Shown here in pieces: positions 24,061-48,771 of a stretch of 61,396 nt of DNA. The DNA lies in the NCBI RefSeq assembly GCF_021730435.1, contig NZ_JABWGX010000028.1, positions 1-61,396 on the forward strand, read 5' to 3'. The notes below the pieces were generated by a model. That model did not search any database. It was not told where the DNA came from and worked only from the letters and a program-made list of their open reading frames with translations. The translations under genes were made by a program, and so were the position numbers. The stretch comes from Xanthobacter agilis. Its GTDB lineage: Bacteria > Pseudomonadota > Alphaproteobacteria > Rhizobiales > Xanthobacteraceae. Position 1 is the first letter of the stretch, and each line of letters opens with the position of its first letter.

Positions 24061-24074
24061 AGGAAGCCGTCACC

Positions 24075-26309: not shown

Positions 26310-26322
26310 GGAGGCCGATCCC

Positions 26323-29531: not shown

Positions 29532-29541
29532 GGGCGCGGCG

Positions 29542-29811
29542 ATGGACGGCAAGACCCTCGCACGTATCGGTGCCGTCGCCTTCGTCGCGGTGGCGATCAC
29601 CGCCACGGTGATCGAACTGACGCGTAACGACGAAGCGACGGAGATCCGCACCGTCAGCCGTCCTCACGGCGGCAATCCCGAACCACTGCGAGCCGTGCTC
29701 CGGCATTGCCGCGACATGGGCGAGGCCGCCAGCCGTGATGCGAGCTGCCTCAAGGCATGGGCGGAGAACCGTGACAGCTTCCTCGGTGCCACCTCGCCGG
29801 AGGCGCATTGA
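29542..29811 (+). CDS. trbK: TrbK-like entry exclusion protein
   Basis: An 89-residue protein with one N-terminal membrane helix (ARIGAVAFVAVAITATVIEL) and a short periplasmic part with two Cys (RHCRDMGEAASRDASCLKAW). This matches the alternative TrbK group found between trbJ and trbL in these ICEs and is thought to block redundant transfer into cells already carrying the element. Stop overlaps the trbL leader. Confidence 0.82.
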   Translation: MDGKTLARIGAVAFVAVAITATVIELTRNDEATEIRTVSRPHGGNPEPLRAVLRHCRDMGEAASRDASCLKAWAENRDSFLGATSPEAH

Positions 29812-29813
29812 CC

Positions 29814-31822: not shown

Positions 31823-32862
31823 CGCCGACCTTCCGCAAGGCCGCCCCCGGACAAGCGGGACGTCCGGCTTTCCGTAAATCCGCCTTGCCGCTTCTCTTGG
31901 CTTTCACATCCGTGCTCGCCGGCTGTGCCACGGCGCAGAAGCCGCCCGAAATCTCCTATGACGATGCGATGCCTGCTGTCCAGACCGCCGATCCGCCGGT
32001 GCCGGTCCGAGTGGTGGAATTGCCGAAGCCTCTCCCGTTGCCCGGCCAGTTGAAGCCCGTCGGCAAGGACGGCAAGCCGACGCCCGAACTGCCGGACCCG
32101 GCCGCGCGGGTGAACGAGGCCAACGCCGCCGCGCGGATGCAACCGGTCAGGAACGGCTTCATCAACGCCATCCAGGTCTATCCCTTCGTCGATGGCGCGC
32201 TCTATCAAGTCTACACCGCGCCCGGCCAGATTACCGACATCGCCTTGCAGGCCGGCGAAACACTGGTCGGCTCGGGACCCGTTGCCGCCGGCGACACGGT
32301 GCGTTGGATCATCGGCGACACCGAGAGCGGCGCCGGCACCACCAAGCAGGTTCATATCCTCGTCAAACCGACCCGGCCCGAGCTGATGACCAATCTTGTC
32401 ATCAACACCAACGCGCGCACCTACCACATGGAGCTGCGCTCGACCGAGAAGACCTATATGGCCTCGGTGTCCTGGCAGTATCCACAGGATCAGCTCATCG
32501 CGCTGCGCCGGCAGAACGCCGAGGCGCAAGCCGTCCAGCCGGTGGCGACCGGCATCGATCTCGCGCGCGTCAACTTCCGCTACGAAGTGACGGGCGATCG
32601 CGCGCCGTGGCGGCCGCTCCGCGCCTTCGACGACGGCCGCCAGGTCTTCATCGAGTTCCCGCGCGGTATCGGCCAGGGCGAGATGCCACCGCTCTTCGTC
32701 GTCGGTCCGGAGGGCGATACCTCGGAACTGGTGAATTATCGGGTGCGCGACAACTACATGATCGTCGACCGGTTGTTCGCTGCCGCCGAGTTGCGCTTCG
32801 GCGCCGACAAGAATCAGAAGCGCGTTCGCATCTCGCGCACCGACGGGAGGCCGGCGTCGTGA
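31819..32862 (+). CDS. trbG: Conjugal transfer lipoprotein TrbG (VirB9 family)
   Basis: A 347-residue outer-membrane-core component. The signal peptide ends in a lipobox LAGC (about residues 34-37). The VirB9-like region includes QVYPFVDGALYQVYTAPGQI, a stretch like VHILVKPTRPELMTNLVINT, and NYMIVDRLFAAAELR. The lipobox is a noteworthy trait of P-type TrbG. Overlaps trbI by GTGA. Confidence 0.94.
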   Translation: MTPTFRKAAPGQAGRPAFRKSALPLLLAFTSVLAGCATAQKPPEISYDDAMPAVQTADPPVPVRVVELPKPLPLPGQLKPVGKDGKPTPELPDPAARVNEANAAARMQPVRNGFINAIQVYPFVDGALYQVYTAPGQITDIALQAGETLVGSGPVAAGDTVRWIIGDTESGAGTTKQVHILVKPTRPELMTNLVINTNARTYHMELRSTEKTYMASVSWQYPQDQLIALRRQNAEAQAVQPVATGIDLARVNFRYEVTGDRAPWRPLRAFDDGRQVFIEFPRGIGQGEMPPLFVVGPEGDTSELVNYRVRDNYMIVDRLFAAAELRFGADKNQKRVRISRTDGRPAS

Positions 32863-34082
32863 GTGAGATCGACCCCGATCGTCAGAAGCCGGACGCAGAC
32901 GCCGATGCCCGGCCGCTGACCGGAGAGCCTGTCGCGCCGATGCGGCTGCGCCCCGAACCGCCGCGCGTGACGCGTCTGTCGCGAAAGGTGCTGATCGCCC
33001 TTGGTGTGCTTGCCGGCATCGGTATCGGCGGAACGTTGATCTACGCGCTTCAAACCCAGCGCGGCGGCAAGACGAACGAGGAACTGTATTCGACCGACAA
33101 CCGGACGACGCCCGACGGCCTCGCCGCCTTGCCGAAGGACTATGCCGGTATCCCGAAGCTCGGTCCGCCGCTGCCGGGCGACCTCGGCCGCCCGATCCTC
33201 AGCGCCCAGAATGCCGGCCAGCCGGTGCCGACACCGGAGATCGCGACGCCCAATCCGGGGATCAGTCAGGAAGAGCAGCGCCGCATTCAGGAGTCGGAGG
33301 CCGCGCGGACGGCACGTCTCTTTGCTTCGACCGAGACGCGGCCAGCCAGCACCGCTGTCCCTCAGCCGCAAGCGGCGGTCACGCCGCAGGCGGACCTCTC
33401 CAGCCTTGGGCTGGCACCACAGCCTGCGACGCCGTCCGCGCAGGATCGTCAACTCGCATTTCTGAACCGGGCACCCGACAAGCGCACGGTCTCACCGGAT
33501 CGTATCGCCGCTCCTGCGTCGGCCAATGTGCTTCAGGCGGGGGCGGTCATCGCGGCGGCACTCATCACCGGCATCCGCTCCGATCTTCCCGGCCAGATCA
33601 CTGCTCAGGTCACGGAGAACGTCTATGATAGCCCGACCGGGCGCATCCTGCTCGTTCCGCAGGGCACGCGGATCATCGGTCAGTACGACAACGGCGTCGG
33701 CTTCGGTCAGCGCCGAGTGCTGCTGGTCTGGAACCGGCTGATCTTCCCCAATGGCCGCTCGATCGTGTTGGAGCGCCAGCCAGGTGCAGACGCCGAGGGC
33801 TATGCCGGGCTCGAAGATGGCGTCGACTACCATTGGGGTGAGCTGTTCAAGGCCGCGGCGCTTTCAACGCTGCTCAGCGTTGGTGCCGAGGCGGGATCAT
33901 CGGGTCAGGAGAGTGACATCATCCGCGCGTTGCGCAACGGCGCATCCGACAGCATCAACCAGACCGGTCAGCAGATCGTGCAGCGCCAGCTCAACATCGC
34001 GCCGACACTGACCATCCGGCCAGGCTTCCCGGTCCGCGTGATCGTTACGCGAGACTTGGTACTCGAACCCTATGGAGGCTGA
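32859..34082 (+). CDS. trbI: Conjugal transfer protein TrbI (VirB10 family)
   Basis: A 407-residue protein that starts with GTG inside the end of trbG. A cytoplasmic Pro-rich N-terminus, one transmembrane helix (VLIALGVLAGIGIGGTLIYA, about residues 45-64), a Pro/Gln-rich periplasmic linker and a VirB10 barrel (LVPQGTRIIGQYDNGVGFGQ, TIRPGFPVRVIVTRDL) follow. It spans both membranes. DUF2274 follows directly. Confidence 0.95.
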   Translation: MSEIDPDRQKPDADADARPLTGEPVAPMRLRPEPPRVTRLSRKVLIALGVLAGIGIGGTLIYALQTQRGGKTNEELYSTDNRTTPDGLAALPKDYAGIPKLGPPLPGDLGRPILSAQNAGQPVPTPEIATPNPGISQEEQRRIQESEAARTARLFASTETRPASTAVPQPQAAVTPQADLSSLGLAPQPATPSAQDRQLAFLNRAPDKRTVSPDRIAAPASANVLQAGAVIAAALITGIRSDLPGQITAQVTENVYDSPTGRILLVPQGTRIIGQYDNGVGFGQRRVLLVWNRLIFPNGRSIVLERQPGADAEGYAGLEDGVDYHWGELFKAAALSTLLSVGAEAGSSGQESDIIRALRNGASDSINQTGQQIVQRQLNIAPTLTIRPGFPVRVIVTRDLVLEPYGG

Positions 34083-34602: not shown

Positions 34603-34815
34603 ATGGAAATGAACGAGCGTCCGCGCAAGGCAACGCGACTGACCGTGAGTCTGGAAGAACAAGATTATCAGACTCTGTGCCAGATCGCGCTATCGAGGGA
34701 CGCTTCGGTTTCGTGGGTCATCCGCCAGGCGATCCGACAATTCATCGAAAGCTCGTCCGAAGCCCGTGGCCCATCGTCTATGTCTAGACCCCCTCGGAAG
34801 GGTGGTGAGGCATGA
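34603..34815 (+). CDS. Small CopG-like RHH protein heading the defence operon
   Basis: A 70-residue RHH protein: RKATRLTVSLEEQDYQTLCQ, SRDASVSWVIRQAIRQFI, then a polar tail. MEMNERP gives two possible starts (34603, 34609). It overlaps the helicase gene by ATGA, so it is co-translated and probably autoregulates the operon. RHH regulators are common first genes of defence loci. Confidence 0.75.
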   Translation: MEMNERPRKATRLTVSLEEQDYQTLCQIALSRDASVSWVIRQAIRQFIESSSEARGPSSMSRPPRKGGEA

Positions 34816-37800
34816 GGCTTATTAGGAACAGCGGGACGGACCGTGCCATCGACAGATTGCGCGAATGGCTGGATCAGGGCGCTCTCATAGACATCGTTTC
34901 CCCGTCCTTTTCACTGCTTGCATTTGCCGAGCTTCGAGGCGTTCTCGATCGAATCGAGCGATGCCGGCTGTTGCTGGGAGACGCCAGTTCCGTTCTTCCT
35001 AGCCTTCTCGGCGGTGAAGCTGACATCGTCTTCCGGGGACAACTTCAAGGGCGTTGGCTCGCCCGTCTCGTCGCCGAATGGGCGCGGAAGCGGGTTGAGA
35101 TTCGGCACGCACGTCGAACACCGCCACAGTCGCTAATACTCGTCAACGGCAAACCCGACTTCCGCCGGGCCATGGTCGGGACATGCTCATTCACGTCCGA
35201 TGGTCTGGGTGTCACCCCGAGCGGTCGATTGGGGTTGGTTCAAGCAACCGAGTCGGATGCCGAAACCGCTGATTTTTCGGAATGGTTTCGCTCGAACTGG
35301 GAGGACATCGAGGCGAGCCCATCGGCGAAGGCCCACTTTCTGAACGCACTGGAGGAAATCGCCTCGCAGCGCGCGCCATCTCTCGTCTATTTCCAGATAC
35401 TCTATCAAGTCTTCAAGGACCTGGGTGATGAGCTCGACGAGGAGCGGATCATCAAGTCGGCGACGGGCATTCGAAACACCGTCGTGTGGAAGAAGCTGTT
35501 TCGCTTCCAACGCGATGGGGTGGTGGGTGCGATCGACAAATTGGAGAGGATCGGCGGCTGCATTATTGCTGACAGTGTTGGCCTCGGAAAGACATTCGAA
35601 GCGCTCGCAGTTGTAAAGTACTATGAGCTTCGCAATGATCGCGTTCTCGTGCTTTGCCCGAAGCGCCTTCGTGATAATTGGACCCTTTATAAGGCAAATG
35701 ACCGCCGAAACATTCTGGCTTCAGATCGGTTCAATTATGATGTTTTGAACCACACGGATCTGTCGCGCGATGGCGGTGTATCCGGCGACATTGATCTTGC
35801 TCACGTAAACTGGGGCAATTACGACCTCGTGGTCATCGACGAGTCGCACAACTTCAGGAACAAGCCGACCCATAAGGACCGCGACAGCCGCTACGACCAC
35901 CTCATGAAACGGATCATTCTGTCGGGGGTGAAGACCAAGGTGCTGATGCTGTCTGCAACGCCGGTCAACAACCGTCTTGCCGACCTCAAGAACCAAATCG
36001 CATTTGTAACAGAAGGGAATGACGTGGCTCTTGCGGCCAATGGCATTCCAAGCATCGAAGCGACGATCCGGAAAGCGCAAGGGCAGTTCAATCGTTGGCT
36101 CGACCTTTCGGAAAGCGAACGCCGGCCCGCTAAGCTTATGGACATGCTCGGCTTTGACTATTTCAAGTTGCTCGACATGTTGACGATCGCCAGGTCACGA
36201 AAGCATGTGCAACGCTATTATGGGATTGAGGAAACGGGGCAGTTTCCTGACCGGCTGCCGCCGGTGAACATCAAGGCGGACGTTGATCTCACGGGTGAGT
36301 TTCGGCCTATTCGCGAGGTCAACAACGAAATTCGTCGCCTTACTCTCGGTGCCTACGCGCCACTGCGATACGTGCTGCCACACAAGCAGGCTGCGTATGA
36401 CGAGAAGTACAGTACAAAGATTCGAGGTGGCGATCAGTTCTTCCGGCAGCTCGACCGCGAGGAAAGCCTCACCCACCTCCTGCGTGTGAATATCCTGAAG
36501 CGCATGGAGAGTTCCGTTGCGTCGTTCTCCCTGACCATCGAACGCCAACTTGCGGACGTTGATGCACTGCTCGCCAAAATCGACTCCCATGACGACGCGA
36601 TCGAGGAAATCCCGATTGACGACGTGGATGTGGACGATCCCGCATTCGAGCCGCTGCTCGTCGGCCGAAAGGTCAAGGTGCTTCTCCAGGACGTTGACCG
36701 TATTCGCTGGCGACAGGATCTTGTCGAGGACCATGAACGTTTGGCGGCGCTTCTATCGGCCGCGCGTCTTGTTATCCCCAAACGGGATGCCAAGTTGGCT
36801 GCGCTCAAACGGCTTGTCGTTGAGAAGGTTCGTAATCCGATAAACCCGGACAACCGGAAGATTTTGCTGTTCACGGCGTTCGCCGATACGGCTGACTATC
36901 TCTATCGCGAGTTGGCCGATTGGGCGCGATCGGCGCTCGGCCTACATAGCGCGGTCGTTACCGGCGCTGGGGCGAATAAGACCACATTGCCGGGCGTTCG
37001 CGGGGACATGAGCAGCATTCTGAGCGCTTTCTCTCCAAGGTCCAAAGAACGGCCGGCAGAGCTTGTCGCCGAGGGAGAAATCGATCTTCTGATTGCCACG
37101 GACTGTATTTCGGAAGGTCAGAACCTTCAGGACTGCGATTACCTCGTCAATTACGATATCCATTGGAACCCTGTCCGGATCATCCAACGATTTGGCCGCA
37201 TCGACCGGATCGGCTCCCGAAACGCAAGGATTCAGTTGGTCAACTTCTGGCCGAATATGGAGTTGGACGAGTACCTCGACCTCGAATCCCGCGTCAGCGG
37301 GCGCATGATGCTCCTTGATGTGTCGGCTACCGGCGAGGAGAACGTCATCGAGTTCCAGGCGGGCAACGAGATGAACGATCTGGAATACCGTCGCGCGCAG
37401 CTTCAGAAGCTGCAGGATGCCGTGATCGATCTTGAGGACTTGTCCAGTGGCGTTTCCATCGCGGATCTCACACTCAACGATTTCCGGATCGATCTGGCGG
37501 GCTATCTGGGTGCCAATCGGGAGCGGCTCGATGCGTTGCCGCTCGGCACCTATGCCGTCACGGAGGCTTCCGACGACGGAGAGAGCCCAGTTCCGCCGGG
37601 TGTCATCTTCTGTTTGAGGGCCGTTGGCGAGGCAGCTTCCTCCGTCGTCGAGCCGGGCTATCCGCTGGCTCCCCATTACGTTGTTCATGTCGGAGAGGAT
37701 GGAGAAGTCCTGCTTCCCTACACGCAGGCGAAGCAGGTGCTCGATCGCCTGAAGAAACTCAGTCTCGGCCGTGACCAGCCGGACCAGGCGGCTTATGGTC

Positions 37801-38024
37801 GATTCGACAAGACCACGCGCGCCGGTCGCGACATGGAGCCCTACCGCAAGCTGCTCGCCCGCGCCGTCGGTACGATTGTCGGCAAACGTGAAGAGCGAGC
37901 GGTTGCCAGCCTGTTCCAAATGGGTGGCACCCACGCGGTGAAGGGGGAGTTTGCCGGCATCAATGACTTCGAGGTTGTCGCGTTTTTGGTGGCTCTGGCT
38001 CCGACGACGGACGTGGCGCCATGA
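34812..38024 (+). CDS. PLD-like / SNF2-family helicase
   Basis: A 1,070-residue superfamily 2 ATPase. The N-terminal about 200 residues look like a phospholipase-D-type nuclease-like domain (LDQGALIDIVSPSFSLLAFA), though no HKD motif is evident. The SNF2 core has Walker A ADSVGLGKTFEAL (about 250), motif II VIDESHN (about 342), motif III LSATPVNN (about 379) and motif VI IQRFGRIDRIGS (about 793). The C-terminal region is unassigned. It overlaps the DUF4391 gene by ATGA. Likely a DNA translocase of an anti-phage system, with the DUF4391 and downstream nuclease proteins as partners. Confidence 0.85.
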   Translation: MRLIRNSGTDRAIDRLREWLDQGALIDIVSPSFSLLAFAELRGVLDRIERCRLLLGDASSVLPSLLGGEADIVFRGQLQGRWLARLVAEWARKRVEIRHARRTPPQSLILVNGKPDFRRAMVGTCSFTSDGLGVTPSGRLGLVQATESDAETADFSEWFRSNWEDIEASPSAKAHFLNALEEIASQRAPSLVYFQILYQVFKDLGDELDEERIIKSATGIRNTVVWKKLFRFQRDGVVGAIDKLERIGGCIIADSVGLGKTFEALAVVKYYELRNDRVLVLCPKRLRDNWTLYKANDRRNILASDRFNYDVLNHTDLSRDGGVSGDIDLAHVNWGNYDLVVIDESHNFRNKPTHKDRDSRYDHLMKRIILSGVKTKVLMLSATPVNNRLADLKNQIAFVTEGNDVALAANGIPSIEATIRKAQGQFNRWLDLSESERRPAKLMDMLGFDYFKLLDMLTIARSRKHVQRYYGIEETGQFPDRLPPVNIKADVDLTGEFRPIREVNNEIRRLTLGAYAPLRYVLPHKQAAYDEKYSTKIRGGDQFFRQLDREESLTHLLRVNILKRMESSVASFSLTIERQLADVDALLAKIDSHDDAIEEIPIDDVDVDDPAFEPLLVGRKVKVLLQDVDRIRWRQDLVEDHERLAALLSAARLVIPKRDAKLAALKRLVVEKVRNPINPDNRKILLFTAFADTADYLYRELADWARSALGLHSAVVTGAGANKTTLPGVRGDMSSILSAFSPRSKERPAELVAEGEIDLLIATDCISEGQNLQDCDYLVNYDIHWNPVRIIQRFGRIDRIGSRNARIQLVNFWPNMELDEYLDLESRVSGRMMLLDVSATGEENVIEFQAGNEMNDLEYRRAQLQKLQDAVIDLEDLSSGVSIADLTLNDFRIDLAGYLGANRERLDALPLGTYAVTEASDDGESPVPPGVIFCLRAVGEAASSVVEPGYPLAPHYVVHVGEDGEVLLPYTQAKQVLDRLKKLSLGRDQPDQAAYGRFDKTTRAGRDMEPYRKLLARAVGTIVGKREERAVASLFQMGGTHAVKGEFAGINDFEVVAFLVALAPTTDVAP

Positions 38025-38806
38025 CGGAGGTGGCGGCAACTGACCCGATCATAACGGCTCTCGATTTGCCGCCGGGCGCGCGCCTTGACATGCGCGTGCC
38101 GAAGAAGGCGCTGCTTGAGCAGGGCGCGCCGACGGCGACTGACAAGCGGGCCATTCAAGACGGCATCGAAGAGATGCAGTGGATCGCAGCTCTCAAGCCC
38201 AACACCGTCGCCATACCGGCATTCGTGAACGAAGGCCGGAACTATTCGGAGATTGCGGTCCTATCCGCGACGCTTCGGCCGGAGGCACGCTCGCCCCGCC
38301 TCACGGAGCTCATTCATCGTGCCATTCCCTATCCGGTTCTGCTGATCACTCTGTCGGGCTCGCACTCGGCCTTGTCGGTCGCACCTAAGCGGGCGGCTCA
38401 GAACGAGGGCAACAAGATCGTGGTCGAACGCATCGTGCTCGCGGACGAGATCGATCCTGGCGCACCGTCGGCGATCGAACGGTCATTCCTGGAAAGCCTG
38501 GCACTCGCACAGCAACCCGCACGCGATCTATCGACGGTATACGATGGTTGGCTGGTTCGGATCGAGGCGCTGAATGCGGCGCGCGTCTCGGGCCATTTCA
38601 TGCTCACCAATGAAGCCGATCGGATCGACCGCCGTCGCTCGGCGCTGGAAGAGCACGCTCGGCTTTTGCGCGAGATCGCACAGTTGCGGGCGCAGGCGGG
38701 TCGCGCCAAACAGATTAGTCAACGGGTTGATTTGAACCAGAAGATCAAGGCGGTCGAAGCCGCGATCGATCGCGCCAAGCGGTTGATGCTGGGGGATGTT
38801 GAATGA
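38021..38806 (+). CDS. DUF4391 family protein
   Basis: A 261-residue protein of the DUF4391 family: VPKKALLEQGAPTATDKRAI, DGIEEMQWIAALKPNTVAIP, then IHRAIPYPVLLI and a C-terminal coiled coil (about residues 205-255). The family is regularly found beside SNF2-type helicases and type III-like methyltransferases in defence loci; biochemical function unknown. The two ATGA overlaps make it an obligate companion of helicase and DUF262 protein here. Confidence 0.8.
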   Translation: MTEVAATDPIITALDLPPGARLDMRVPKKALLEQGAPTATDKRAIQDGIEEMQWIAALKPNTVAIPAFVNEGRNYSEIAVLSATLRPEARSPRLTELIHRAIPYPVLLITLSGSHSALSVAPKRAAQNEGNKIVVERIVLADEIDPGAPSAIERSFLESLALAQQPARDLSTVYDGWLVRIEALNAARVSGHFMLTNEADRIDRRRSALEEHARLLREIAQLRAQAGRAKQISQRVDLNQKIKAVEAAIDRAKRLMLGDVE

Positions 38807-40752
38807 AGATTTCCACGATCCTGGACCATATCGACAGCGGGCACATGGCGCTGCCCGAGTTTCAGCGCGGTTATGTCTGGAACCGCGATCAGGTCCGGGG
38901 CCTGTTCGACTCGCTCTACCGGAGGCATCCGGTCGGCGGCCTGCTTGTATGGGCGACGGAGGCCAAAACGGCCGCACATCGCGGTGACGGTCCGATCGCG
39001 GCGGGCATCGTCAAGCTCCTGCTCGACGGTCAGCAACGCATGACATCGCTCTACGGTGTGGTGCGCGGGCATCCGCCGAAATTCTTCGATGGCAACACCC
39101 AGGCCTTCAGCGGCTTACGGTTCCATCTCGGAACAGAGACCTTCGCTTTCTACCAGCCGGTCAAGATGCAGGACGATCCGCTATGGATTGATGTCACCGC
39201 CTTGATGAAGGCGGGGAACGCCGGGCTTGGGGCGTTGATCGCTCAGCTTTCCGCCGATCCTGCACATGTCGCGAATGTCGGCGCTTATGTCGGCCGGCTT
39301 GGCGCTCTGCTCGGTGTCACCGAGATCGATCTGCACGTCGAGGAGGTCACCGGTCAGGACAAGACCCTTGATGTCGTCGTCGATATCTTCAACCGGGTGA
39401 ACAGTGGCGGCACCAAGCTGTCGAAGGGCGACCTGGCGCTGGCGAAAATCTGCGCCGAATGGCCGGAAGCCCGCGACTCCATGAAGGCCAAGCTGAAGGA
39501 GTGGACCGCCGCCGGCTACCAGTTCAACCTCGATTGGCTGCTGCGCTCCGTCAACACGGTTCTGACCGGCGAGGCCAAGTTCAGCTATCTCCACGACAAG
39601 GGCGCGCTCGACATTCAGGATGGCTTGAAGCGCGCCGGTAAGCATATCGATGCGAGCTTGAACTTCATCGCCGGGCGCTTGGGCCTGGATCATGACCAAG
39701 TCTTCTTCGGGCGTTTCGGCGTGCCCGTTATGGTGCGCTACATGGACAAGGCGAAGGGCCCGCTGGACGCCAAGGAGCGCGACAAACTCCTGTTCTGGTT
39801 CGCGCAGGCCGGCATGTGGGGGCGCTTTTCGGGGTCGACGGAAACCTTCATCGATCAGGATCTGGCCGCCCTCGAAGGGCTGAACGGCGGCCTGGACACG
39901 CTGTTGGAACAGCTCCGGCTATGGCATGGCGGCCTGCGGGTCGAGGCAGGCCACTTCACCGGCTGGAGCCTCGGTGCGCGGTTTTATCCGGTACTCTACA
40001 TGCTGACCCGCATGGGTGAGGCGCGTGATTGGGGGACGGGGTTGCCTCTGCGCGCGAGCCTGCTCGGGAAAATGAGCCGCCTGGAAGTGCATCACATCTT
40101 CCCCAAGGCGCAGCTCTACAAGCTGAAACACCGCAGGGCCGACGTTAACGCGCTCGGCAATTTCTGCTTCCTGACCAAGGACACGAATCTCAACATCAGC
40201 GACCGCCTGCCGGAAGAGTATTTCCCGCAGATCGAGGCGCGGCATCCCGGCGCGCTGGCGTCGCAGTGGATACCGACCGATCCCGCGCTGTGGAAGATCG
40301 AGCGCTACCTCGATTTTCTCGAGGCTCGGAAGGCGTTGCTGGCCGCGGAGGCGAACCGGCGCTTCGAAGATTTGCTCCATGGCGATACGCGCTGGCTCGG
40401 CACGGCAGCGCCGGTGACGGAGGCCGAGACACAGACTGCGGGCGGCATCACGAGCGAGGTCGAGGAAGCCGAACTCGAAGCCCTCAACGATTGGGTCGAC
40501 GGCCAAGGCTTGCCGCGTGGCCTGCTCGGCTTCGACTACGCCGATCCGGCCACGGGTGCGCAAAAGGCGCTGTTCGATCTGGCGTGGCCGGACGGTCTGC
40601 AGCCCGGCTTGAGTGCCCCCATTGCCGTGTTGCTCAATGAAGGTCCGGAGATCCTCGCCCTGGCGAGCAAGGCAGGATTCCGCTGCTTCACGTCCTCGGC
40701 TGATTTCCGCACCTATGTCGAAACCGAAATTCTGCACCTGGAAGCGGCCTGA
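38803..40752 (+). CDS. GmrSD-like DUF262 plus HNH nuclease
   Basis: A 649-residue protein. The N-terminal DUF262 (ParB-like NTPase fold) has ALPEFQRGYVWNRDQVRGLF and LLLDGQQRMTSLYG (DGQQR about residues 74-78), then FNRVNSGGTKLSKGDLALAK. A DUF1524-like HNH motif LEVHHIFPKAQL ... NALGNFCFL lies at about residues 427-460. GmrSD-type proteins cut modified (for example glucosylated) phage DNA. The extra about 170-residue C-terminus is unassigned. Coupled to DUF4391 by ATGA. An Asn/His-type HNH appears complete. Confidence 0.85.
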   Translation: MKISTILDHIDSGHMALPEFQRGYVWNRDQVRGLFDSLYRRHPVGGLLVWATEAKTAAHRGDGPIAAGIVKLLLDGQQRMTSLYGVVRGHPPKFFDGNTQAFSGLRFHLGTETFAFYQPVKMQDDPLWIDVTALMKAGNAGLGALIAQLSADPAHVANVGAYVGRLGALLGVTEIDLHVEEVTGQDKTLDVVVDIFNRVNSGGTKLSKGDLALAKICAEWPEARDSMKAKLKEWTAAGYQFNLDWLLRSVNTVLTGEAKFSYLHDKGALDIQDGLKRAGKHIDASLNFIAGRLGLDHDQVFFGRFGVPVMVRYMDKAKGPLDAKERDKLLFWFAQAGMWGRFSGSTETFIDQDLAALEGLNGGLDTLLEQLRLWHGGLRVEAGHFTGWSLGARFYPVLYMLTRMGEARDWGTGLPLRASLLGKMSRLEVHHIFPKAQLYKLKHRRADVNALGNFCFLTKDTNLNISDRLPEEYFPQIEARHPGALASQWIPTDPALWKIERYLDFLEARKALLAAEANRRFEDLLHGDTRWLGTAAPVTEAETQTAGGITSEVEEAELEALNDWVDGQGLPRGLLGFDYADPATGAQKALFDLAWPDGLQPGLSAPIAVLLNEGPEILALASKAGFRCFTSSADFRTYVETEILHLEAA

Positions 40753-40789
40753 GCGCGACCGACACAATGTGGGGAAAATGGGGGTGGTT

Positions 40790-41764
40790 ATGAAACCGCA
40801 GATGCTTTGGAGGCGCATTAGTCCAACTGATTTCCGTTCCATGAACGGAAATGCGTCCCCCCATGGCCGAGGCGGTGGCGCGATGCACATTTCCCTCGGT
40901 GTGAGAACAGACCATTTCCCTATTGATGACTTTCTGGATGCGCACGGGAAAACTGAAGTCACGATCTCTGCTGTTGCAGGCAGCAATCGCGCCAACATCA
41001 CCAACTTGGCGTTTAGTGGAAACCCCCAACGCAGAGGCGGGGAATGGCGAATCCGAGATCAGTATAGCAACCGTCACCCTGCGTGGACTCCGGCCGCTGA
41101 CTTCCCGTCTGTATATGACACCAAAAATCCCCCTTACATTTTCATCTTCAAGATAGGTAAGACATTTTACGCGCGATTTGTTCTCGACACCGAGATCGCT
41201 AAGCTAACATCTGCGGCTGGCGCTAGAGAGATATTAGATAGCAATACTGGATTGGGGCCAGCGTCTCCCGAACTCATAAAGGCGCTCAATGTCCCTCGGG
41301 TCAGCCGGATCGACGAGCTTTTGTTAAAACAAGACGATGATTACGGAGAGCCCTTCGATCCCAAAAATATACCGGATGGAAAGAACCGTATTATTGCAGA
41401 AATAGTCCGCCGCCTTGGGCAACAGGCATTTCGTCGAAAGCTCGTATCTGCGTACGGCGCCAAATGCGCTATGACGCGATGCAAGACCCAGTGGGTGCTG
41501 GAAGCGGCCCATATCGTGCCTTACCGGGGCTTGAAGACGAATGCTGTCTCTAACGGCCTATTGCTTCGTGCCGATGTCCACACACTTTTCGATCTCGGCT
41601 TAATATCGGTCGATCCAAAAATCCTGAAAACCAAGGTATCAAACATACTTAGTGGTTCGGAATACGAGGAACTTGATGGCCGAGAATTATCACTCCCATC
41701 CAGATCTACCCATTACCCAAGTATAGCAGCCCTCGAATACCACTACAGCATCTTTCATCCGTAG
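40790..41764 (+). CDS. HNH endonuclease with N-terminal recognition-like domain
   Basis: About 324 residues. The C-terminal HNH_2-type domain shows KLVSAYGAKCAMTRCKTQWV, EAAHIVPYRG (about residues 237-246), NAVSNGLLLRADVHTLFDLG. The N-terminal about 190 residues are not recognised but resemble DNA-recognition parts of restriction enzymes. ATG 40790 has GGGGTGG upstream; ATG 40778 is an alternative. Base composition drops sharply (23 of 60 G+C at 41,101-41,160), unlike the preceding genes. It may be a type IV-like or type II-like nuclease acquired separately. Confidence 0.75.
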   Translation: MKPQMLWRRISPTDFRSMNGNASPHGRGGGAMHISLGVRTDHFPIDDFLDAHGKTEVTISAVAGSNRANITNLAFSGNPQRRGGEWRIRDQYSNRHPAWTPAADFPSVYDTKNPPYIFIFKIGKTFYARFVLDTEIAKLTSAAGAREILDSNTGLGPASPELIKALNVPRVSRIDELLLKQDDDYGEPFDPKNIPDGKNRIIAEIVRRLGQQAFRRKLVSAYGAKCAMTRCKTQWVLEAAHIVPYRGLKTNAVSNGLLLRADVHTLFDLGLISVDPKILKTKVSNILSGSEYEELDGRELSLPSRSTHYPSIAALEYHYSIFHP

Positions 41765-41809
41765 CGGCTTCCCGGACACAATTGAACTCTAGACAATATG
41801 AGATGCTGA

Positions 41810-43714
41810 ATGAGCGATATTAAGAAAATGAACCGCGAGGCTCCCGAAGCCCAAAGCGCGGATCTCATGGCAAATAATGTGGTTGCGCTGAAAAGCCTAT
41901 TTCCCGAAATTGCGGTTGAGGGAAAGCTTGATCTCGACCTTCTCAAAGAGTTGCTAGGTCTATCCGTTGCTCAATCTGATGAGAGATTTGGTCTCAATTG
42001 GCATGGCAAGCGCAAGGCACGACAGATTGCGTTGACGCCCTCGCTGGGGACACTGCTCCCTTGTCCTGCAGAGAGCCTTAATTGGGATACAACCCAAAAT
42101 CTGATGATCGAGGGGGACAATCTTGAGGTCCTGAAGCTTCTACAAAAAAGCTTCGCCGCAAAAATCAAGCTTATATATATAGATCCGCCTTATAATACGG
42201 GGAAGGACTTTGTATATCCCGATGACTATCGCGATAATATTGGAAATTACCTTGAGCTAACGGGGCAAACGGAGGGTGGACGTCGCATCAGCTCGAATGC
42301 CGAAGCTTCTGGTCGATTTCACACGGATTGGCTGAACATGATGTACCCTCGATTGAGGGTCGCAAGAACGCTGCTTCACCCTGAGGGTGTTATTCTCGTT
42401 TCGTGCGATGACGGGGAGGTGGCAAATCTTAAGTTGATGCTGAACGAGATTTTTGGAGAAGAAAATTTCGTTGCGCAGTTTGTTTGGAAGGCGCGCCAAT
42501 TCAGCGACACGCGCGCAAACACAAACATATCAACGGATCACGAGTATATCCTGGCTTACTCCAGAGATGACGGAATTTCTCTAAAAGGCGTGGGCCGCGA
42601 CGAGTCTAAATTCGCCAATCCCGACAACGATCCTCGCGGAGAGTGGATGAGCCGTAGTATGCTCGGCCTCGCGACGCGAGATCAGCGGCCCAACCTTCAC
42701 TATGAAATCCGCGAGCCGTCCACAGGGCGGGTATTTCCGCCGAATCCATCGACCGGTTGGCGGTACTCGAAAGAAAAGATGACGGAGCTGATTTCTGAGG
42801 GAAAGGTGCTATTCCCCAAAAGCGATCAAGGTCGTCCACGCGAAAAAAAGTTCCGGAACGAAATGAGAGCGGAATTCATTGCGTTCCGCTCGATTATTGA
42901 CGGCGTACACACTGCGGATGGGACGCAAGAAATTCGGTCGCTCTTCGGAGTCGATCTCTTTGCTTTTCCAAAGCCGACAGAGCTGGTTGCAAGCCTGATC
43001 GAGCAGGTCGCAGGCGAAGGTGATATTGTTATGGATTTTTTTGCGGGGTCTGGCACAACCGGACATGCCGTAATGAAAAAGAACTCCGCCGAGAGTGTAG
43101 GGCGCCGCTATATTCTCGTTCAACTTCCAGAACCGCTCGATCCCAGCAACAGAGAGCAGAAGGTTGCCGCTGACTTTTGCGATAAATTGAAATTGCCACG
43201 ACGTATATCGGAATTGACAAAAGAGCGGCTTCGGCGTGCGGCTCAGCGCATTGAAGGGGAGAGCCCGCTTCTTAAGGGAGATCTCGGCTTCCGAGTCTTC
43301 AAGCTCGCATCGTCAAATATCCGCGCATGGCAACCCGATGTCGCTGATCTCGAGGACAGCCTTCTGAAGAATGCCGAACACCTCGTTCAGGGTCGCAAGG
43401 AGCAAGACGTGCTCTATGAGCTCTTGCTCAAGCTTGGCCTTGATCTCTGCGTGCCGATCGAGACGAAGACGATGGCCGGCAAGACAGTTCATTCCATTGG
43501 CGGTGGCACGCTGATCGTCTGTCTCGCTGACGGTCTGACCAAGGACGTAGTTGAGGAACTCGCGAAAGGCATCGTTGAATGGCGGAAGGCTTTGGCGCCG
43601 GCCGTTGATACACGCGTCGTGTTCAAGGACACCGGCTTCGCCGATGACATCGCCAAGACCAACATGGCCGCGATCCTGAACCAGGCCGGCATTTCCGACG
43701 TTCGTAGCCTGTGA
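41810..43714 (+). CDS. mod: Type III restriction-modification DNA methyltransferase
   Basis: A 634-residue beta-class N6-adenine methyltransferase. Motif IV DPPYNTG (about residue 126) precedes motif I DFFAGSGTTGHAVM (about 409), the order of type III Mod proteins. Between them lies the variable target-recognition region. The N-terminal part is AT-rich (25 of 60 G+C at 42,181-42,240) and the last about 130 codons are GC-rich (35 of 60 at 43,501-43,560), a mosaic. Res follows 10 bp downstream. Mod modifies host sites and also gives Res its specificity. Confidence 0.9.
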   Translation: MSDIKKMNREAPEAQSADLMANNVVALKSLFPEIAVEGKLDLDLLKELLGLSVAQSDERFGLNWHGKRKARQIALTPSLGTLLPCPAESLNWDTTQNLMIEGDNLEVLKLLQKSFAAKIKLIYIDPPYNTGKDFVYPDDYRDNIGNYLELTGQTEGGRRISSNAEASGRFHTDWLNMMYPRLRVARTLLHPEGVILVSCDDGEVANLKLMLNEIFGEENFVAQFVWKARQFSDTRANTNISTDHEYILAYSRDDGISLKGVGRDESKFANPDNDPRGEWMSRSMLGLATRDQRPNLHYEIREPSTGRVFPPNPSTGWRYSKEKMTELISEGKVLFPKSDQGRPREKKFRNEMRAEFIAFRSIIDGVHTADGTQEIRSLFGVDLFAFPKPTELVASLIEQVAGEGDIVMDFFAGSGTTGHAVMKKNSAESVGRRYILVQLPEPLDPSNREQKVAADFCDKLKLPRRISELTKERLRRAAQRIEGESPLLKGDLGFRVFKLASSNIRAWQPDVADLEDSLLKNAEHLVQGRKEQDVLYELLLKLGLDLCVPIETKTMAGKTVHSIGGGTLIVCLADGLTKDVVEELAKGIVEWRKALAPAVDTRVVFKDTGFADDIAKTNMAAILNQAGISDVRSL

Positions 43715-43724
43715 GGATGGTTCG

Positions 43725-46700
43725 ATGAAACTGCATTTCGAACCCGATCTCGACTACCAGAAACGCGCGATCGAAGCCGTCGCGGACCTGTTTCGTGGCC
43801 AGGAGATCAACCGTACCGAGTTCACCGTCACCGCCTTCGGCACAGGCAAGGCTGGCGGTATCGGTCGATTGAAGGAAGATGCGGCTCTTGATGCGCAGTC
43901 AGAGCTCGGGCTGGTCGAGAGTGAACTCGGCATCGGCAATCGGCTCACGCTGCTGGATGACGAGATCATCGCCAATCTGAAGGATATCCAGCTCCGCAAT
44001 GGCTTGGCGCCATCCTCCGCGCTGACCTCTGGCGACTTCACGGTGGAAATGGAGACCGGCACGGGCAAGACCTATGTCTATCTCCGCACCATTTTCGAGC
44101 TGAACAAGCTCTTTGGCTTCACCAAATTCGTCATCGTCGTGCCGTCGGTCGCGATCAAGGAGGGCGTCTACAAGACGCTCCAGATCACCGAGGAGCATTT
44201 CAAGGGCCTCTATTCGGGACAGCCTTTCGACTATTTCCTCTACGACTCCACCAAGCTCGGCCAGGTGCGCAATTTCGCGACCAGCCCCAACATCCAGATC
44301 ATGGTGGTGACGGTCGGCGCCATCAACAAGAAGGATGTGAACAACCTCTACAAGGACAGCGAGAAGACGGGCGGCGAGCGGCCGATCGACCTCATCCGCG
44401 CGACGCGGCCCATCCTGATCGTGGACGAACCGCAGAGCGTCGACGGCGGCCTTTCTGGCGCGGGCAAGAACGCCCTCGGCGAGATGAATCCGCTTTGCAC
44501 GCTGCGCTATTCGGCGACCCACGTCGACAAGCATCACATGGTGTTCCGCCTGGACGCGGTCGACGCCTACGAGCGCAAGCTGGTCAAGCAGATCGAAGTC
44601 GCCTCGCTCGAAGTGGAAGGAGGCCACAACAAGGCCTATGTCCGTTTCGTCTCCGCCAGCAACGCCAAGGGAACCATCACCGCGCGCGTTGAAATCGATG
44701 TGCTCGATGGCAAGCAGGTGCGTCGCCAGGAGGTGACGGTTCAGGATGGCGACGACCTGGAGGAGCCGACCAAGCGCGCGATTTACGCCGATTGCCGCAT
44801 CGGCGAGATCCGCGCCGGACGCGACAATCAGCTCCTGGAGGTAAAGCTACCGGGCGGTGAAGAGTTTCTCCAGCCAGGCCAAGCCGTCGGCGATGTTGAT
44901 GCCGACGCGCTGAAGCGCCTGATGATCCGCCGCACGATCCACGAGCATCTGGTAAAGGAGAAGCGCTTGGCGCCGCTCGGCATCAAGGTGCTGAGCCTGT
45001 TCTTCATCGATGCGGTGGAGCACTACCGCTCCTACGACGCCGATGGAAATCCCGTGAAGGGCAAATATGCCCGCATCTTCGAGGAAGAGTATCGCCGCGC
45101 GGCGAAGCTTCCCGACTTCGTCAGCCTGTTCAAGGAGGTCGACGTTACGTCGGAAGCCGAAGAGGTGCATGACGGCTATTTCTCGATCGACAAGGCGCGG
45201 CGCTGGACCGATACGGCCGACAACAATCAGGCAGGCCGCGACAATGCCGAGCGTGCCTATAACCTGATCATGAAGGACAAGGAGAAGCTGCTCAGCTTCG
45301 AGACGAAGCTGAAGTTCATCTTTTCGCACTCGGCCCTGAAGGAGGGGTGGGACAATCCCAACGTCTTCCAGATCTGTGCGCTCCGCGAGATCGGCACCGA
45401 GCGCGAGCGGCGGCAAACCATCGGCCGTGGTCTTAGACTGTGCGTGAACCAGAATGGCGAACGCCTGCGCGGCTTCGACATCAACACGCTGACCGTCATC
45501 GCCACAGAGAGCTATGAGGACTTCGCCGAGAACCTGCAGAAGGAGATCGAGAAGGACACCGGCATCAAATTCGGCATCGTCGAAAAGCACCAGTTCGCGA
45601 CCATTCCAGTGGTCAATCCGGACGGCTCGACCGGAATGCTGGGTTTCGAGGAATCAGCCGCCATCTTCGATCACCTGAAGGCCGAGGGCTTCGTCGACAC
45701 CAAGGGCAAGGTGCAGGACACGCTGCGCACCGCCCTGAAGGACGGAACGCTCGCGCTGCCGGTGGCGCTCGCCGCCCACCTTGGCGCGGTTCGTGACGTG
45801 CTGAAGAAGGTCGCTGGGAAGCTCGACATCAAGAACGCCGACGAGCGCGTCACCGTCAAGACACGGCAGGCCATTCTTGAGAGCGCCGAATTCCAGGCGC
45901 TCTGGGACCGCATCAAGCACAAGACGACCTATCGCGTTCACTTCGACAATGAAAAGCTGATCACCGATTGCGCCAAGGCGATCGCCAATGGTCCGCCCGT
46001 CTCCAAGGCCCGCGTGCGGGTCAGGAAGGCCGATCTCTCTATCGGACAGGGTGGTGTCGAGGCCAAGGAGCACGCCAAGGACAGCGGGACGATCATCACG
46101 ATCGAGGAAGGCGACATTATCCTGCCCGACGTGCTGACCGATCTTCAGGACCGGACCCAGCTCACCCGCAAGAGCCTCGTCCGCATTCTGACCGAGTGCG
46201 GCCGCTTGACCGACTTCAAGCGCAATCCGCAAGCCTTCATCGAGATCGCCGGCGAGGTCATCAACCGGACCAAGCGCCTGGCCATTGTCGACGGCATCAA
46301 ATATCAGCGGATCGGCGACGAGCACTATTACGCGCAGGAGCTTTTCGCACAGGAGGAACTGACCGGCTATTTGCGCAACATGCTCAAGGACGCGCAGAAG
46401 TCGGTCTTCGAGCACGTCGTCTATGATTCCGGAGGTGTCGAACGGACATTCGCAGAGCAGCTCGAAAAGAACGAGTCCGTGAAGATCTACGCCAAGCTGC
46501 CTGGGTGGTTCAAAGTGCCGACTCCGCTCGGCACCTACAATCCCGATTGGGCGGTTCTGGTCGAAGTCAGCGGCGAAGAGCGCCTCTATTTCGTCGTGGA
46601 GACCAAAAGCAGCCTCTTCGTGGACGACTTGCGCGATATCGAAGCCGGCAAGATCGCGTGCGGGGAGGCGCACTTCAGCGCGCTCGCCTCCGGACCGAAC

Positions 46701-46754
46701 CCGGCTCGATACATAAAGGCCAGAACGGTCGACGACCTGATGGATCACACGTAA
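43725..46754 (+). CDS. res: Type III restriction enzyme, Res subunit
   Basis: A 1,009-residue helicase-nuclease. Walker A is METGTGKTYV (about residue 108), motif II ILIVDEPQS (about 232), LRYSATH next, and motif VI RRQTIGRGLRL (about 565). The C-terminal PD-(D/E)xK-type nuclease is YNPDWAVL ... YFVVETKSS (about 938-965). All parts for ATP-dependent cleavage of unmodified DNA are present. GAGGA 7-11 nt upstream of ATG 43725 supports coupling to mod. GC-rich like the ICE core. Confidence 0.92.
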   Translation: MKLHFEPDLDYQKRAIEAVADLFRGQEINRTEFTVTAFGTGKAGGIGRLKEDAALDAQSELGLVESELGIGNRLTLLDDEIIANLKDIQLRNGLAPSSALTSGDFTVEMETGTGKTYVYLRTIFELNKLFGFTKFVIVVPSVAIKEGVYKTLQITEEHFKGLYSGQPFDYFLYDSTKLGQVRNFATSPNIQIMVVTVGAINKKDVNNLYKDSEKTGGERPIDLIRATRPILIVDEPQSVDGGLSGAGKNALGEMNPLCTLRYSATHVDKHHMVFRLDAVDAYERKLVKQIEVASLEVEGGHNKAYVRFVSASNAKGTITARVEIDVLDGKQVRRQEVTVQDGDDLEEPTKRAIYADCRIGEIRAGRDNQLLEVKLPGGEEFLQPGQAVGDVDADALKRLMIRRTIHEHLVKEKRLAPLGIKVLSLFFIDAVEHYRSYDADGNPVKGKYARIFEEEYRRAAKLPDFVSLFKEVDVTSEAEEVHDGYFSIDKARRWTDTADNNQAGRDNAERAYNLIMKDKEKLLSFETKLKFIFSHSALKEGWDNPNVFQICALREIGTERERRQTIGRGLRLCVNQNGERLRGFDINTLTVIATESYEDFAENLQKEIEKDTGIKFGIVEKHQFATIPVVNPDGSTGMLGFEESAAIFDHLKAEGFVDTKGKVQDTLRTALKDGTLALPVALAAHLGAVRDVLKKVAGKLDIKNADERVTVKTRQAILESAEFQALWDRIKHKTTYRVHFDNEKLITDCAKAIANGPPVSKARVRVRKADLSIGQGGVEAKEHAKDSGTIITIEEGDIILPDVLTDLQDRTQLTRKSLVRILTECGRLTDFKRNPQAFIEIAGEVINRTKRLAIVDGIKYQRIGDEHYYAQELFAQEELTGYLRNMLKDAQKSVFEHVVYDSGGVERTFAEQLEKNESVKIYAKLPGWFKVPTPLGTYNPDWAVLVEVSGEERLYFVVETKSSLFVDDLRDIEAGKIACGEAHFSALASGPNPARYIKARTVDDLMDHT

Positions 46755-48495: not shown

Positions 48496-48771
48496 GATGC
48501 GTAGCCTGGAGGGTAGCGAGCAATGCGCGCGCGGCAGAATCGGTTTCGCCACGTATCGCAGTCAATCGCGGACGTTTTCGACCGGCTGTAGCTATTTCTC
48601 CTGCACTTCGTATATAATACGAACGAAGAGATTGACGCCGCGCACCGCACCACATTTATTGTGGAAAATCAATTGCGTGTGATTCTGACGGTATATCTGA
48701 CGGTAAACGTCGATTTCTCCGTCTTACACTCATCGAAAATTCAAATACTTACTACTTCGGTTGATCATCGA
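48496..48771. promoter_or_regulatory. Integrase upstream region with recombination-type repeats
   Basis: 276 bp, AT-rich from 48,590. Contains a TTCGTAT-ata-ATACGAA palindrome (48607-48623) and two direct repeats TCTGACGGTA (48684, 48696; spacing 12 bp). These may be integrase core/arm-type sites or an operator. No tRNA 3' end was seen. Confidence 0.45.

Follow-up and report, generated by a model that had tools for sequence, protein, structure and literature searches.

Seven reading frames on the plus strand (34603-46754) of the stretch analysed here, a window of 61,396 nucleotides, place a helicase, a DUF4391 protein, a DUF262 protein and an HNH endonuclease immediately ahead of a type III methyltransferase and restriction enzyme, and raise the question of which of these genes belong together. 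The original prediction saw a defence locus here, as it does appear to be, and took the helicase, DUF4391 and DUF262 genes for its functional unit. Comparison with related loci leads to a different grouping: the locus is a widespread four-gene restriction-modification operon, made up of the helicase (HEL), DUF4391 and the type III Mod-Res pair, with swappable defence genes between the core genes.

Gene layout and carrier element

ORF calling in the window returned the seven frames, and their coordinates bore out the predicted chaining of the leading four, since three four-base ATGA overlaps link the RHH, HEL, DUF4391 and DUF262 frames. The chain opens with a small DNA-binding protein of the CopG type (RHH; 34603..34815, inside an ORF at 34462-34815; Pfam RHH_1, 6.4e-8), followed by the first core gene, HEL, an ATPase of the SNF2 type whose N-terminal domain shows the PLD fold but no HKD motif (34812..38024; PADLOC C3a139 "HKD+Snf2", 5.5e-118; Pfam SNF2-rel_dom and Helicase_C), the second core gene, encoding the DUF4391 protein (38021..38806; PF14335, 1.4e-67), and an accessory insert encoding a DUF262/GmrSD_N protein (38803..40752; Pfam GmrSD_N, 2.9e-24; PADLOC HEC-05, 1.5e-40). 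A second accessory insert encodes an HNH_2 endonuclease (40790..41764, in an ORF at 40613-41764; Pfam HNH_2, 1e-12), whose likely start, 40790, is the point where homology with related locus L059 begins. The third core gene, Mod (41810..43714), encodes a type III adenine methyltransferase (Pfam N6_N4_Mtase, 3e-32; PADLOC MTase_III, 1.3e-212, 706 bits), and the fourth, Res (43725..46754), a type III restriction ATPase/nuclease (Pfam ResIII and RE_endonuc, 1.9e-34; PADLOC REase_III, 1264.5 bits).

The predicted domain labels thus hold as named by Pfam and PADLOC, save for the PLD label of the helicase, which is structural only: Pfam reported no PLD domain in HEL, while the model of its N-terminus has a PLD fold (7clg, E 9.3e-6; 4gel, 8.9e-5; 4rct, 4.9e-4), its structure matches including SauUSI and Zucchini. 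The HKD motif (HxKx4D) was found in none of 60 sequences by pattern search of the first 260 residues and in none of 82 over the aligned stretch, and HEL was accordingly rejected as an active PLD nuclease. Its ATPase motifs (GLGKT at 257, DESH at 343 and QRFGRIDR at 792) are intact in 60/60 sequences, and it weakly matches the DrmD, DpdE and RapA translocase models. What the PADLOC name C3a139 stands for was not found in the literature searched. Mod is an N6-adenine methyltransferase with DPPY (125, present in 59/60 sequences) and FxGxG (FAGSGT, 411), and Res combines an SF2 ATPase (TGTGKT, 111; DEPQ, 234) with a C-terminal PD-(D/E)XK nuclease (PDW, 940; ETK, 959), these motifs being present in 60/60 sequences. 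The RHH gene precedes HEL in only a few relatives (L055, L057, L058, L059 and L061, and weakly, at 26 bits, in L082); it is perhaps an autoregulator of the operon, and a search for its operator upstream turned up nothing beyond short repeats and a single imperfect palindrome of 11 bases.

The operon sits among genes that Pfam assigns to an integrase, a relaxase, TraG and Trb proteins and that mark the carrier as a Trb-type integrative conjugative element, possibly Tn4371-like. Conjugation genes (relaxase with DUF3363, TraG, and TrbB-, TrbE-, TrbL-, VirB8-, CagX- and TrbI-type genes) occupy 15092..34082 on the plus strand, interspersed with an aldo/keto reductase gene and a LysR gene. Downstream, on the same strand, come an AbiEi/AbiEii toxin-antitoxin pair, neighbouring cargo outside the core that is conserved in L057 (46980..48495; Pfam AbiEi_4 and AbiEii), and a tyrosine integrase (48661..50016; Pfam Phage_integrase, 4.2e-23). 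Around the integrase, the search for attachment-site repeats gave only matches of at most 16 bases, and the far end may lie beyond the window, in which no tRNA was found.

A four-gene core shared by distant genomes

A collection of 106 DUF4391 loci was reduced to 98 by removing 8 repeats (L050, L085, L088, L092, L100, L106, L115 and L119), recognised from their coordinates and the lengths of their contigs, leaving no identical DUF4391 tails; relatives from the contig collection were the best 80 of 226, and the window is counted in neither the 98 loci nor the complete set below. The gene order was predicted to recur in unrelated genomes, and it does: 71 of the 98 are complete, with HEL, DUF4391, Mod and Res in a single order, while the other 27 are cut by contig ends (n = 18), ambiguous (n = 3) or incomplete (n = 6). 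Mod and Res occur in 71/71 complete loci by definition of completeness, and they are found in every one of the 98 except those cut or incomplete; the sample, picked by DUF4391 similarity, favours DUF4391-containing loci by design. Among the incomplete arrangements, L070 has HEL-DUF4391-Mod devoid of Res, and L123 is without HEL. In L165, HEL is accompanied by a highly diverged DUF4391-like protein, and Mod-Res is absent. Of 35 matches to plasmid and phage records, 6 were inspected: the core was present in 4 of the 5 complete-looking annotated ones (from an archaeon, E. coli, Lactococcus and an Erysipelothrix phage record), the fifth, from Acetobacter, having a split Res, and also in one unannotated record; the archaeal and Lactococcus plasmids keep the same order.

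In a set of 398 genomes from the phylum, 21 encode HEL, 23 encode DUF4391 and 20 encode both (Fisher 1.5e-29, the genomes not being independent of each other), in agreement with the expectation that DUF4391 travels with the helicase. A Res relative is present anywhere in the genome in 22 of the 23 DUF4391 genomes (on a separate contig in G001, G101 and G185). Conversely, 22 of the 44 genomes with Res relatives (E of at most 1e-60) have no DUF4391, so Mod-Res does not need HEL-DUF4391 everywhere. Over 60 loci with four full-length proteins (59 relatives and the window, the same rows that served for the motif counts), pairwise distances correlate at 0.96 for HEL-DUF4391, 0.95 for HEL-Res, 0.90 for DUF4391-Res and 0.86 for HEL-Mod, and median identity between loci is 0.67 for HEL and 0.68 for Res. 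On a Res tree (FastTree, with long branches flagged) of 60 coupled and 9 uncoupled sequences with readable context, the latter a subset of the 44 Res genomes (7 alone and 2 with a DrmD-like helicase), the coupled/uncoupled label is clustered, changing 4 times where shuffled labels change 8.6 times on average.

The DUF4391 protein gave a model (pLDDT 91.9) that matched nothing at E of 0.001 or better by Foldseek, either among viral models or in the PDB, where the best E was 0.058 and the query-based TM did not exceed 0.22 among the matches listed. A profile search of PDB sequences was discarded as a source of identity, its three matches lying at E 0.06-0.32 and two of them being ATP synthase delta subunits. 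None of these matches (PDB sequences, PDB, viral models) lends support to a physical link or a role of DUF4391, and in the literature searched the family appeared in a single paper, as a row of a table.

Accessory genes and an exchanged cassette

DUF262 and HNH are accessory genes inserted between the core genes. By clustering of the slot proteins, DUF262 is present in 12 of the 71 complete loci, in 3 of these at another junction, and HNH in 2 of the 71. In other loci, the junctions that hold them are occupied by Zeta-toxin-like, RhuM, YhcG, GajA/GajB and AIG2-like genes, and slot genes match HEC-01, HEC-05, HEC-06 and Gabija models; of the 59 clusters formed by 97 frames of at least 90 aa, about 22 were examined with family models or compared directly, the remainder being mostly singletons. 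The DUF262 protein carries a GmrSD_N domain with DGQQR, which we assume to be the motif of GmrSD_N/DUF262, and a C-terminal HHIFP...N motif, presumably HNH-like. Its subfamily also occurs without this operon, at 67% and 52% identity: it either neighbours other systems (DISARM genes or another helicase/methylase set) or stands by itself on plasmids; two genomes of the class encode it at 66-75% identity with no core genes on the stretch.

These distributions decide against the originally proposed HEL-DUF4391-DUF262 unit. A self-contained system of these three genes, with Mod-Res as a mere neighbour, would draw on the ATGA chain of the window and on the recurrence of the same overlap in L055, L057, L058, L062, L063 and L066; however, DUF262 and HNH are largely missing from other helicase-DUF4391 loci, which comes close to the outcome that the prediction itself had named as refuting it, the DUF262 subfamily also lives elsewhere, and Mod and Res remain with HEL-DUF4391 where DUF262 is absent. 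We therefore rule this unit out, leaving it the slightest of probabilities, and take HEL-DUF4391-Mod-Res as the conserved one.

Mod belongs to a cassette that is exchanged between operons. Compared with a 99%-identical Rhizobium operon, the HNH and Mod genes of the window are replaced by another Mod and an AIG2-like gene, which occupy the cassette in L055 and L057. High blastn identity to these two loci ends at 40756 and is full again at 43725; inside the cassette (40757..43724, plus strand), delimited also by per-gene identity, only 5' (74%) and 3' (83-88%) pieces of Mod align. Exchange of Mod together with its neighbour would change specificity.

GmrSD-type (type IV, DUF262) enzymes cut glucosylated hydroxymethylcytosine DNA, and DUF262 and HNH may possibly form an accessory second layer against modified phages. 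That they are functionally paired with Mod, as type IV nucleases directed at phage DNA modified against Mod-Res rather than random cargo, seems to us somewhat unlikely. It would fit the presence of DUF262 in the slots of 12 loci, the fact that HNH and one and the same Mod allele go together in L059, L060 and the window, and a weak hit of HNH (36 bits, cut-off 180) on a model of phosphorothioate-dependent nucleases; yet the HNH cases number only three, window included, and unrelated genes fill the same slots.

Proposed function and comparison with known systems

How would the four core genes act together? Judging from the protein families, Mod would methylate one adenine motif and Res would cut DNA with unmodified sites, the usual type III scheme. 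HEL may translocate on or remodel DNA, its dead PLD domain serving for binding and not for cutting, and DUF4391 would link HEL with either Mod-Res or the substrate; DNA lacking the Mod mark might in this way be blocked as well, without or ahead of cleavage by Res. DUF262 and HNH would be accessory nucleases between the core genes. That HEL-DUF4391 is in this way an ATP-driven second arm of a type III variant is a reading we consider about evenly balanced between right and wrong. Its more specific form, in which two ATP-driven effectors read a single Mod mark, one being the Res nuclease and the other a HEL-DUF4391 machine without nuclease that, in the manner of DISARM or BREX, blocks unmarked DNA but leaves it uncut, with DUF4391 as a new fold linking both, is rather doubtful.

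HEL-DUF4391 could instead assist Mod-Res by remodelling or regulation, either freeing the path of the sliding Res complex from bound proteins or holding Res back until host DNA is methylated. We give this a minor but real share of the probability: the pair adjoins Mod-Res in the 71 complete loci, HEL lacks HKD and weakly matches translocase models, and Mod-Res without the pair is expected if a helper is dispensable, whereas HEL is conserved like Res, more than expected of a dispensable helper. Improbable, by comparison, is that HEL-DUF4391 and Mod-Res are independent systems co-travelling on mobile elements with no functional link. Mobile carriers, Mod-Res lacking the pair and the one pair devoid of Mod-Res (L165) speak for such co-travel, but the gene order, fixed in all complete loci as well as in the plasmids of the archaeon and of Lactococcus, the parallel divergence of the core genes and the clustering on the Res tree speak against it.

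Under the four-gene grouping, a textbook type III class contains a large lineage, its members ranging from an archaeon to plasmids of E. coli, that carries two additional core genes. If HEL-DUF4391 act on the same mark as Res, type III restriction would be linked to methylation-based exclusion (DISARM, BREX) and DUF4391 would gain a function; cassette exchange between near-identical operons offers a natural experiment in how specificity changes, and from the slots comes a list of accessory genes for defence testing.

Classical type III systems have two genes, and their Mod-Res complex cleaves 25-27 bp from head-to-head asymmetric sites. Mod and Res of the window match the type III (EcoP15I-like) models over almost their full length (706 and 1264 bits) with motifs intact, but here HEL and DUF4391 precede them. 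DISARM (the SNF2 helicase DrmD, a methylase and the PLD protein DrmC) shares with the present locus an SNF2 helicase, a PLD fold and an adenine methylase, and DISARM_DrmD is the best NCBIfam model for HEL; in contrast, the PLD fold of HEL is fused and without HKD, and the locus has a full type III Res. Membership was rejected, as the DrmD score (144 bits) is far under the cut-off of 610 and DISARM genes are missing: for DrmA, the PADLOC model hit the 7 operon proteins only in part, through the helicase of HEL (86 bits), and for DrmB (DUF1998), a Pfam scan of 17 window proteins between 31819 and 54030 gave no match. SauUSI, a PLD and SF2 helicase restriction enzyme, matches the HEL N-terminus in fold (E 9.3e-6) and presumably has the same domain order, but HEL has lost the HKD residues and belongs to a Mod-Res operon. 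BREX can harbour a nested GmrSD-family gene, BrxU, and resembles the present locus in that a system relying on methylation encloses a DUF262/GmrSD gene; no BREX set was seen here, however, and BrxH models are weak helicase matches only.

A description of the four-gene set as a unit was not found in those parts of the literature that our searches reached (type III with SNF2/PLD/HKD, four-gene). The candidates embedded in Hma ("guilt-by-embedding"; Payne 2024 preprint, as cited in PMC12988326) are, as far as that citation describes them, akin to the present slot genes, which match HEC-01, HEC-05, HEC-06 and Gabija models, but the host operon here is a type III one with HEL-DUF4391 and not Hma. 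In the RptR island, DarTG2 lies within a type I operon; by the description consulted, it likewise has a small regulator and foreign defence genes nested among restriction-modification genes, differing in being type I and not type III (PMC12255303). Finally, the integrative element IECsakMK101 of Cronobacter has as cargo a type III endonuclease, a Mod-type methyltransferase and an SNF2 family helicase; the passage seen treats them as separate cargo genes, with DUF4391 unnamed and no system proposed, but since it lists Res, Mod and the helicase together, the element is, by description, perhaps a member of this operon class (PMC12757443).

A four-gene core and its distribution

As the original prediction had described, with coordinates that agree, the plus strand of the window carries an RHH gene (34603-34815), the SNF2-type helicase gene HEL (34812-38024), DUF4391 (38021-38806) and DUF262/GmrSD (38803-40752), chained by ATGA overlaps and followed by HNH (40790-41764), Mod (41810-43714) and Res (43725-46754). 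The domain labels were borne out by Pfam, PADLOC and NCBIfam, save that "PLD" lacks Pfam support.

A PF14335 (DUF4391) search of 398 genomes of the phylum and 61 relatives, both sets including the window's own genome, yielded 23 and 3 positives, respectively. HEL (E <= 1e-60) was present in 21 of the same 398 genomes, and both proteins in 20 (Fisher P = 1.5e-29, kinship ignored). In the HEL genome without a DUF4391 match (G071), a divergent DUF4391-like protein adjoins HEL (17 bits vs the Pfam cut-off of 29.9), while the three with DUF4391 but no HEL match (G018, G022 and G257) have DUF4391 near a contig end, G018 containing a HEL fragment. Res relatives (E <= 1e-60) occurred in 44 of the 398 genomes, 22 with and 22 without DUF4391; thus Res is present in 22 of the 23 DUF4391 genomes, on another contig in three (G001, G101 and G185). 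From these counts, the HEL-DUF4391 pair nearly always accompanies Mod-Res, but Mod-Res is able to occur without the pair. The G071 locus (L165, 6954-11263), with a HEL of 1071 bits, a very divergent DUF4391-like protein of 353 aa and neither Mod nor Res on its 20 kb stretch, is possibly a stand-alone form of the pair.

Scanning a named contig collection with a 21-row alignment gave 226 relatives, of which the best 80 were kept; the fetched loci numbered 98 distinct ones after removal of 8 repeats. All four genes were present in 71, always in the order HEL-DUF4391-Mod-Res. The other 27 comprised 18 loci cut within 300 bases of an end, 3 ambiguous ones (L105, L108 and L122) and 6 incomplete ones, namely L035 (neither Mod nor Res in 9.6 kb), L067 (Mod cut short, Res absent), L070 (Res absent), L120 (a deletion running from DUF4391 into Res), L123 (HEL absent in 10 kb) and L132 (DUF4391 fragment). 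In L070, the HEL-DUF4391-Mod frames (6804-12807) are open, Res is absent from the next 7.9 kb, and a gene resembling an integrase (by eye) lies nearby.

Named origins included Pseudomonadota, Nitrospirota, Acidobacteriota, Chloroflexota, Verrucomicrobiota, Planctomycetota and Myxococcota. Among 35 plasmid or phage records matching DUF4391, the six inspected for gene content showed all four genes complete in Methanomethylovorans, an E. coli plasmid (L185), Lactococcus, an Erysipelothrix phage record and an unannotated faecal phage record, and Res split by an insertion in an Acetobacter record. The L185 version occurred in 10 of 5,426 E. coli genomes (at least 80% of its length in 9), 10 of its 11 places being plasmids. 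In the Erysipelothrix record, labelled phage phi1605 (L187), the operon lies between two recombinase genes, near genes annotated for macrolide efflux.

Pairwise distances among 60 sets of four full-length proteins (59 relatives and the window) correlated at 0.96 for HEL-DUF4391, 0.95 for HEL-Res, 0.90 for DUF4391-Res, 0.87 for Mod-Res, 0.86 for HEL-Mod and 0.83 for DUF4391-Mod, with 0 of 500 permutations exceeding 0.37. On the Res tree, coupling to HEL-DUF4391 needs 4 changes vs a shuffled mean of 8.6 (0 of 500 shuffles as low); some uncoupled rows are nested within the coupled part, which would fit losses of the pair, and one of them, L166, retains just a remnant of Mod, next to a Fic gene. 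The unit is HEL-DUF4391-Mod-Res, and not HEL-DUF4391-DUF262 as originally proposed: DUF4391 does co-occur with HEL and with Mod/Res, and gene order is kept, but DUF262 was found in the junctions of 12 loci only. The original observation is confirmed and its interpretation partly upheld, the composition of the unit being different.

Exchange of Mod and accessory genes

In the 49 closer loci, the HEL-Res correlation was retained at 0.79, while the values for HEL-Mod and Mod-Res fell to 0.50 and 0.46, respectively, a drop that exchange of Mod specificity would be expected to cause. The operon of Rhizobium sp. SL86 (L055) is 99, 98, 99 and 99% identical to the window in HEL, DUF4391, DUF262 and Res, respectively, vs 64-70% in the two pieces of its Mod, and has no HNH. 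Nucleotide identity stays high up to 40756, four bases past the DUF262 stop, and regains its full level where Res begins (43725); the only stretches of the interval that align are the 5' (74%) and 3' (83%) parts of Mod. Compared with L057 and four other loci, most of the divergence of Mod falls within residues 200-400, where 40-residue segments are 15-45% identical, vs 70-97% for its last 114 residues. The specificity cassette is cleanly exchanged between operons. The SL86 Mod (L055, 12741-17327) is interrupted by a 2.5 kb insertion carrying an opposite-strand gene resembling a transposase (by eye).

L059 and L060 share both Mod allele (83%) and HNH (66%) with the window, and L060 also retains a DUF262 remnant of 92 aligned residues; judging from these three cases, window included, HNH accompanies the Mod allele rather than HEL-DUF4391. 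Window-type DUF262 lies in the DUF4391-Mod junction of L055, L057, L058, L062, L063 and L066, and more distant versions occupy that junction in L038, L094 and L109 and the HEL-DUF4391 one in L112, L126 and L134; a profile of this 12-locus set (E <= 0.1) found no further DUF262 among the other inserted frames (102 in all). Surroundings were inspected in 4 of 12 plasmid records with a DUF262 relative: a Paracoccus copy (67% identical) is flanked by two other helicases and an N6-methylase, a Nostoc copy (52%) adjoins DrmA and DrmC, a second Nostoc copy has no DrmA/DrmC-type or helicase/methylase neighbours, and an Aulosira copy (53%) is near a weak helicase match. DUF262 matched in 12 of 357 class genomes; apart from the window's own, the best two matches (75 and 66%) lay on examined stretches that showed none of the four core genes. 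Given these other contexts, DUF262 is a free module. DUF262 and HNH are exchangeable accessories.

Junctions of at least 240 bases were scored in 9 of 89 cases for HEL-DUF4391, 29 of 88 for DUF4391-Mod and 38 of 77 for Mod-Res, and 45 of the 71 complete loci had at least one. Inserted frames of at least 150 aa lay on the operon strand in 71 of 76 cases, though some may be spurious, as they were chosen as the longest non-overlapping frames. Besides DUF262, clusters named by the Pfam/PADLOC match of single representatives (about 22 of 59 scanned) included RhuM (7 loci), AIG2/GGACT-like (6 loci, with copies 54-67% identical to these also in L055 and L057), Zeta-toxin-like and Schlafen-AlbA (4 each), AAA ATPase (3; the L087 copy and its neighbour match HEC-01), YhcG nuclease, Abi_2, OLD-type (L129 matching GajA-GajB) and HNH (L059 and L060), the last four in 2 loci each, along with clusters of other kinds. 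In L055 and L057, an AIG2-like gene in the Mod-Res junction takes the place of HNH. In L129, a Gabija-like GajA-GajB pair (1500-4090) is nested whole in the DUF4391-Mod junction. Fic genes between Mod and Res in L166 and L169, relatives without HEL-DUF4391, indicate that this slot is not peculiar to HEL loci.

An AbiEi/AbiEii pair (46980-48495) separates Res from an adjoining tyrosine integrase gene, and relaxase, TraG and Trb genes lie upstream, so that the locus is cargo, placed between trbI and int, of an apparent integrative conjugative element; GC drops across the locus to 0.54-0.63 from about 0.66-0.67. The AbiE pair is also kept in L057, and an AbiEi homologue lies upstream of HEL in L045. 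Related integrase and trb genes also surround the operon in L058 (4728-20777) and L068 (4666-20268), where, as compared with the window, it is inverted jointly with the integrase with respect to the trb genes.

Motifs, predicted structures and known systems

All 60 full-length sequences keep GLGKT, DESH and QRFGRxDR in HEL and TGTGKT, DEPQ and PDW...E(T/S/A)K in Res; Mod has DPPY in 59 and the FxGxG pattern in 54. The predicted HEL N-terminus (pLDDT 82.2) resembles the PLD-superfamily structures SauUSI, Zucchini and the NgoAVII R protein (TM 0.42-0.46 over the query). HxKx4(D/N) is absent from the first 260 residues in 60/60, HxK occurring elsewhere there in 10/60; by strand order, the nearly invariant glutamine Q106 would stand at the HxK place. 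The domain is PLD by fold and very probably not a nuclease. The DUF4391 model (pLDDT 91.9) comprises an alpha/beta part and a helical hairpin, and matched nothing in PDB or among viral models at E <= 0.001.

In type III systems such as EcoP15I, the sites recognised by Mod are asymmetric and are methylated by it on one strand, and Res slides with Mod and cuts where two unmodified sites meet. The intact motor motifs, dead PLD domain and small conserved partner suggest that HEL-DUF4391 would act by DNA translocation, roadblock clearing or exclusion instead of cleavage. From its linkage and parallel divergence, this arm may read the Mod mark.

HEL matches the PADLOC model C3a139 "HKD+Snf2", so its family had already been flagged by the PADLOC authors; the origin of this model was not found in the literature searched, and the part of PMC8565338 available does not name HKD. 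In that literature, DUF4391 appeared in one paper, as a table row. According to the accessible portion of Iyer 2008 (PMC2292703), MORC-linked R-M operons hold SF2 helicases, which include HKD-bearing and SNF2 members, and the HEL-DUF4391-Mod-Res set was not found in that portion. Likewise from partial texts, HKD-helicase proteins occur alongside Dnd systems (PMC10853773), the listed cargo of a Cronobacter element includes a type III Res, a Mod and an SNF2 helicase, with neither DUF4391 nor a unit named (PMC12757443), and defence genes embedded in other systems are already known (PMC12988326, PMC12255303). As the literature searched, which excluded most subscription papers, preprints and supplements, gave no such unit, the four-gene system is here regarded as a new variant of type III R-M. 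Among SNF2-type proteins of methylation-based and other systems, HEL shows weaker matches to the DrmD, DpdE, BrxH and RapA models. DrmD-like helicases (705 and 657 bits) lie upstream of related Mod-Res, without DUF4391, in L168 (8132-16461) and L173 (8144-15998), suggesting repeated recruitment of SNF2 motors by type III pairs. As a restriction system the locus is ordinary; what sets it apart is two conserved core genes of unexplained role and the clean exchange of its specificity cassette.
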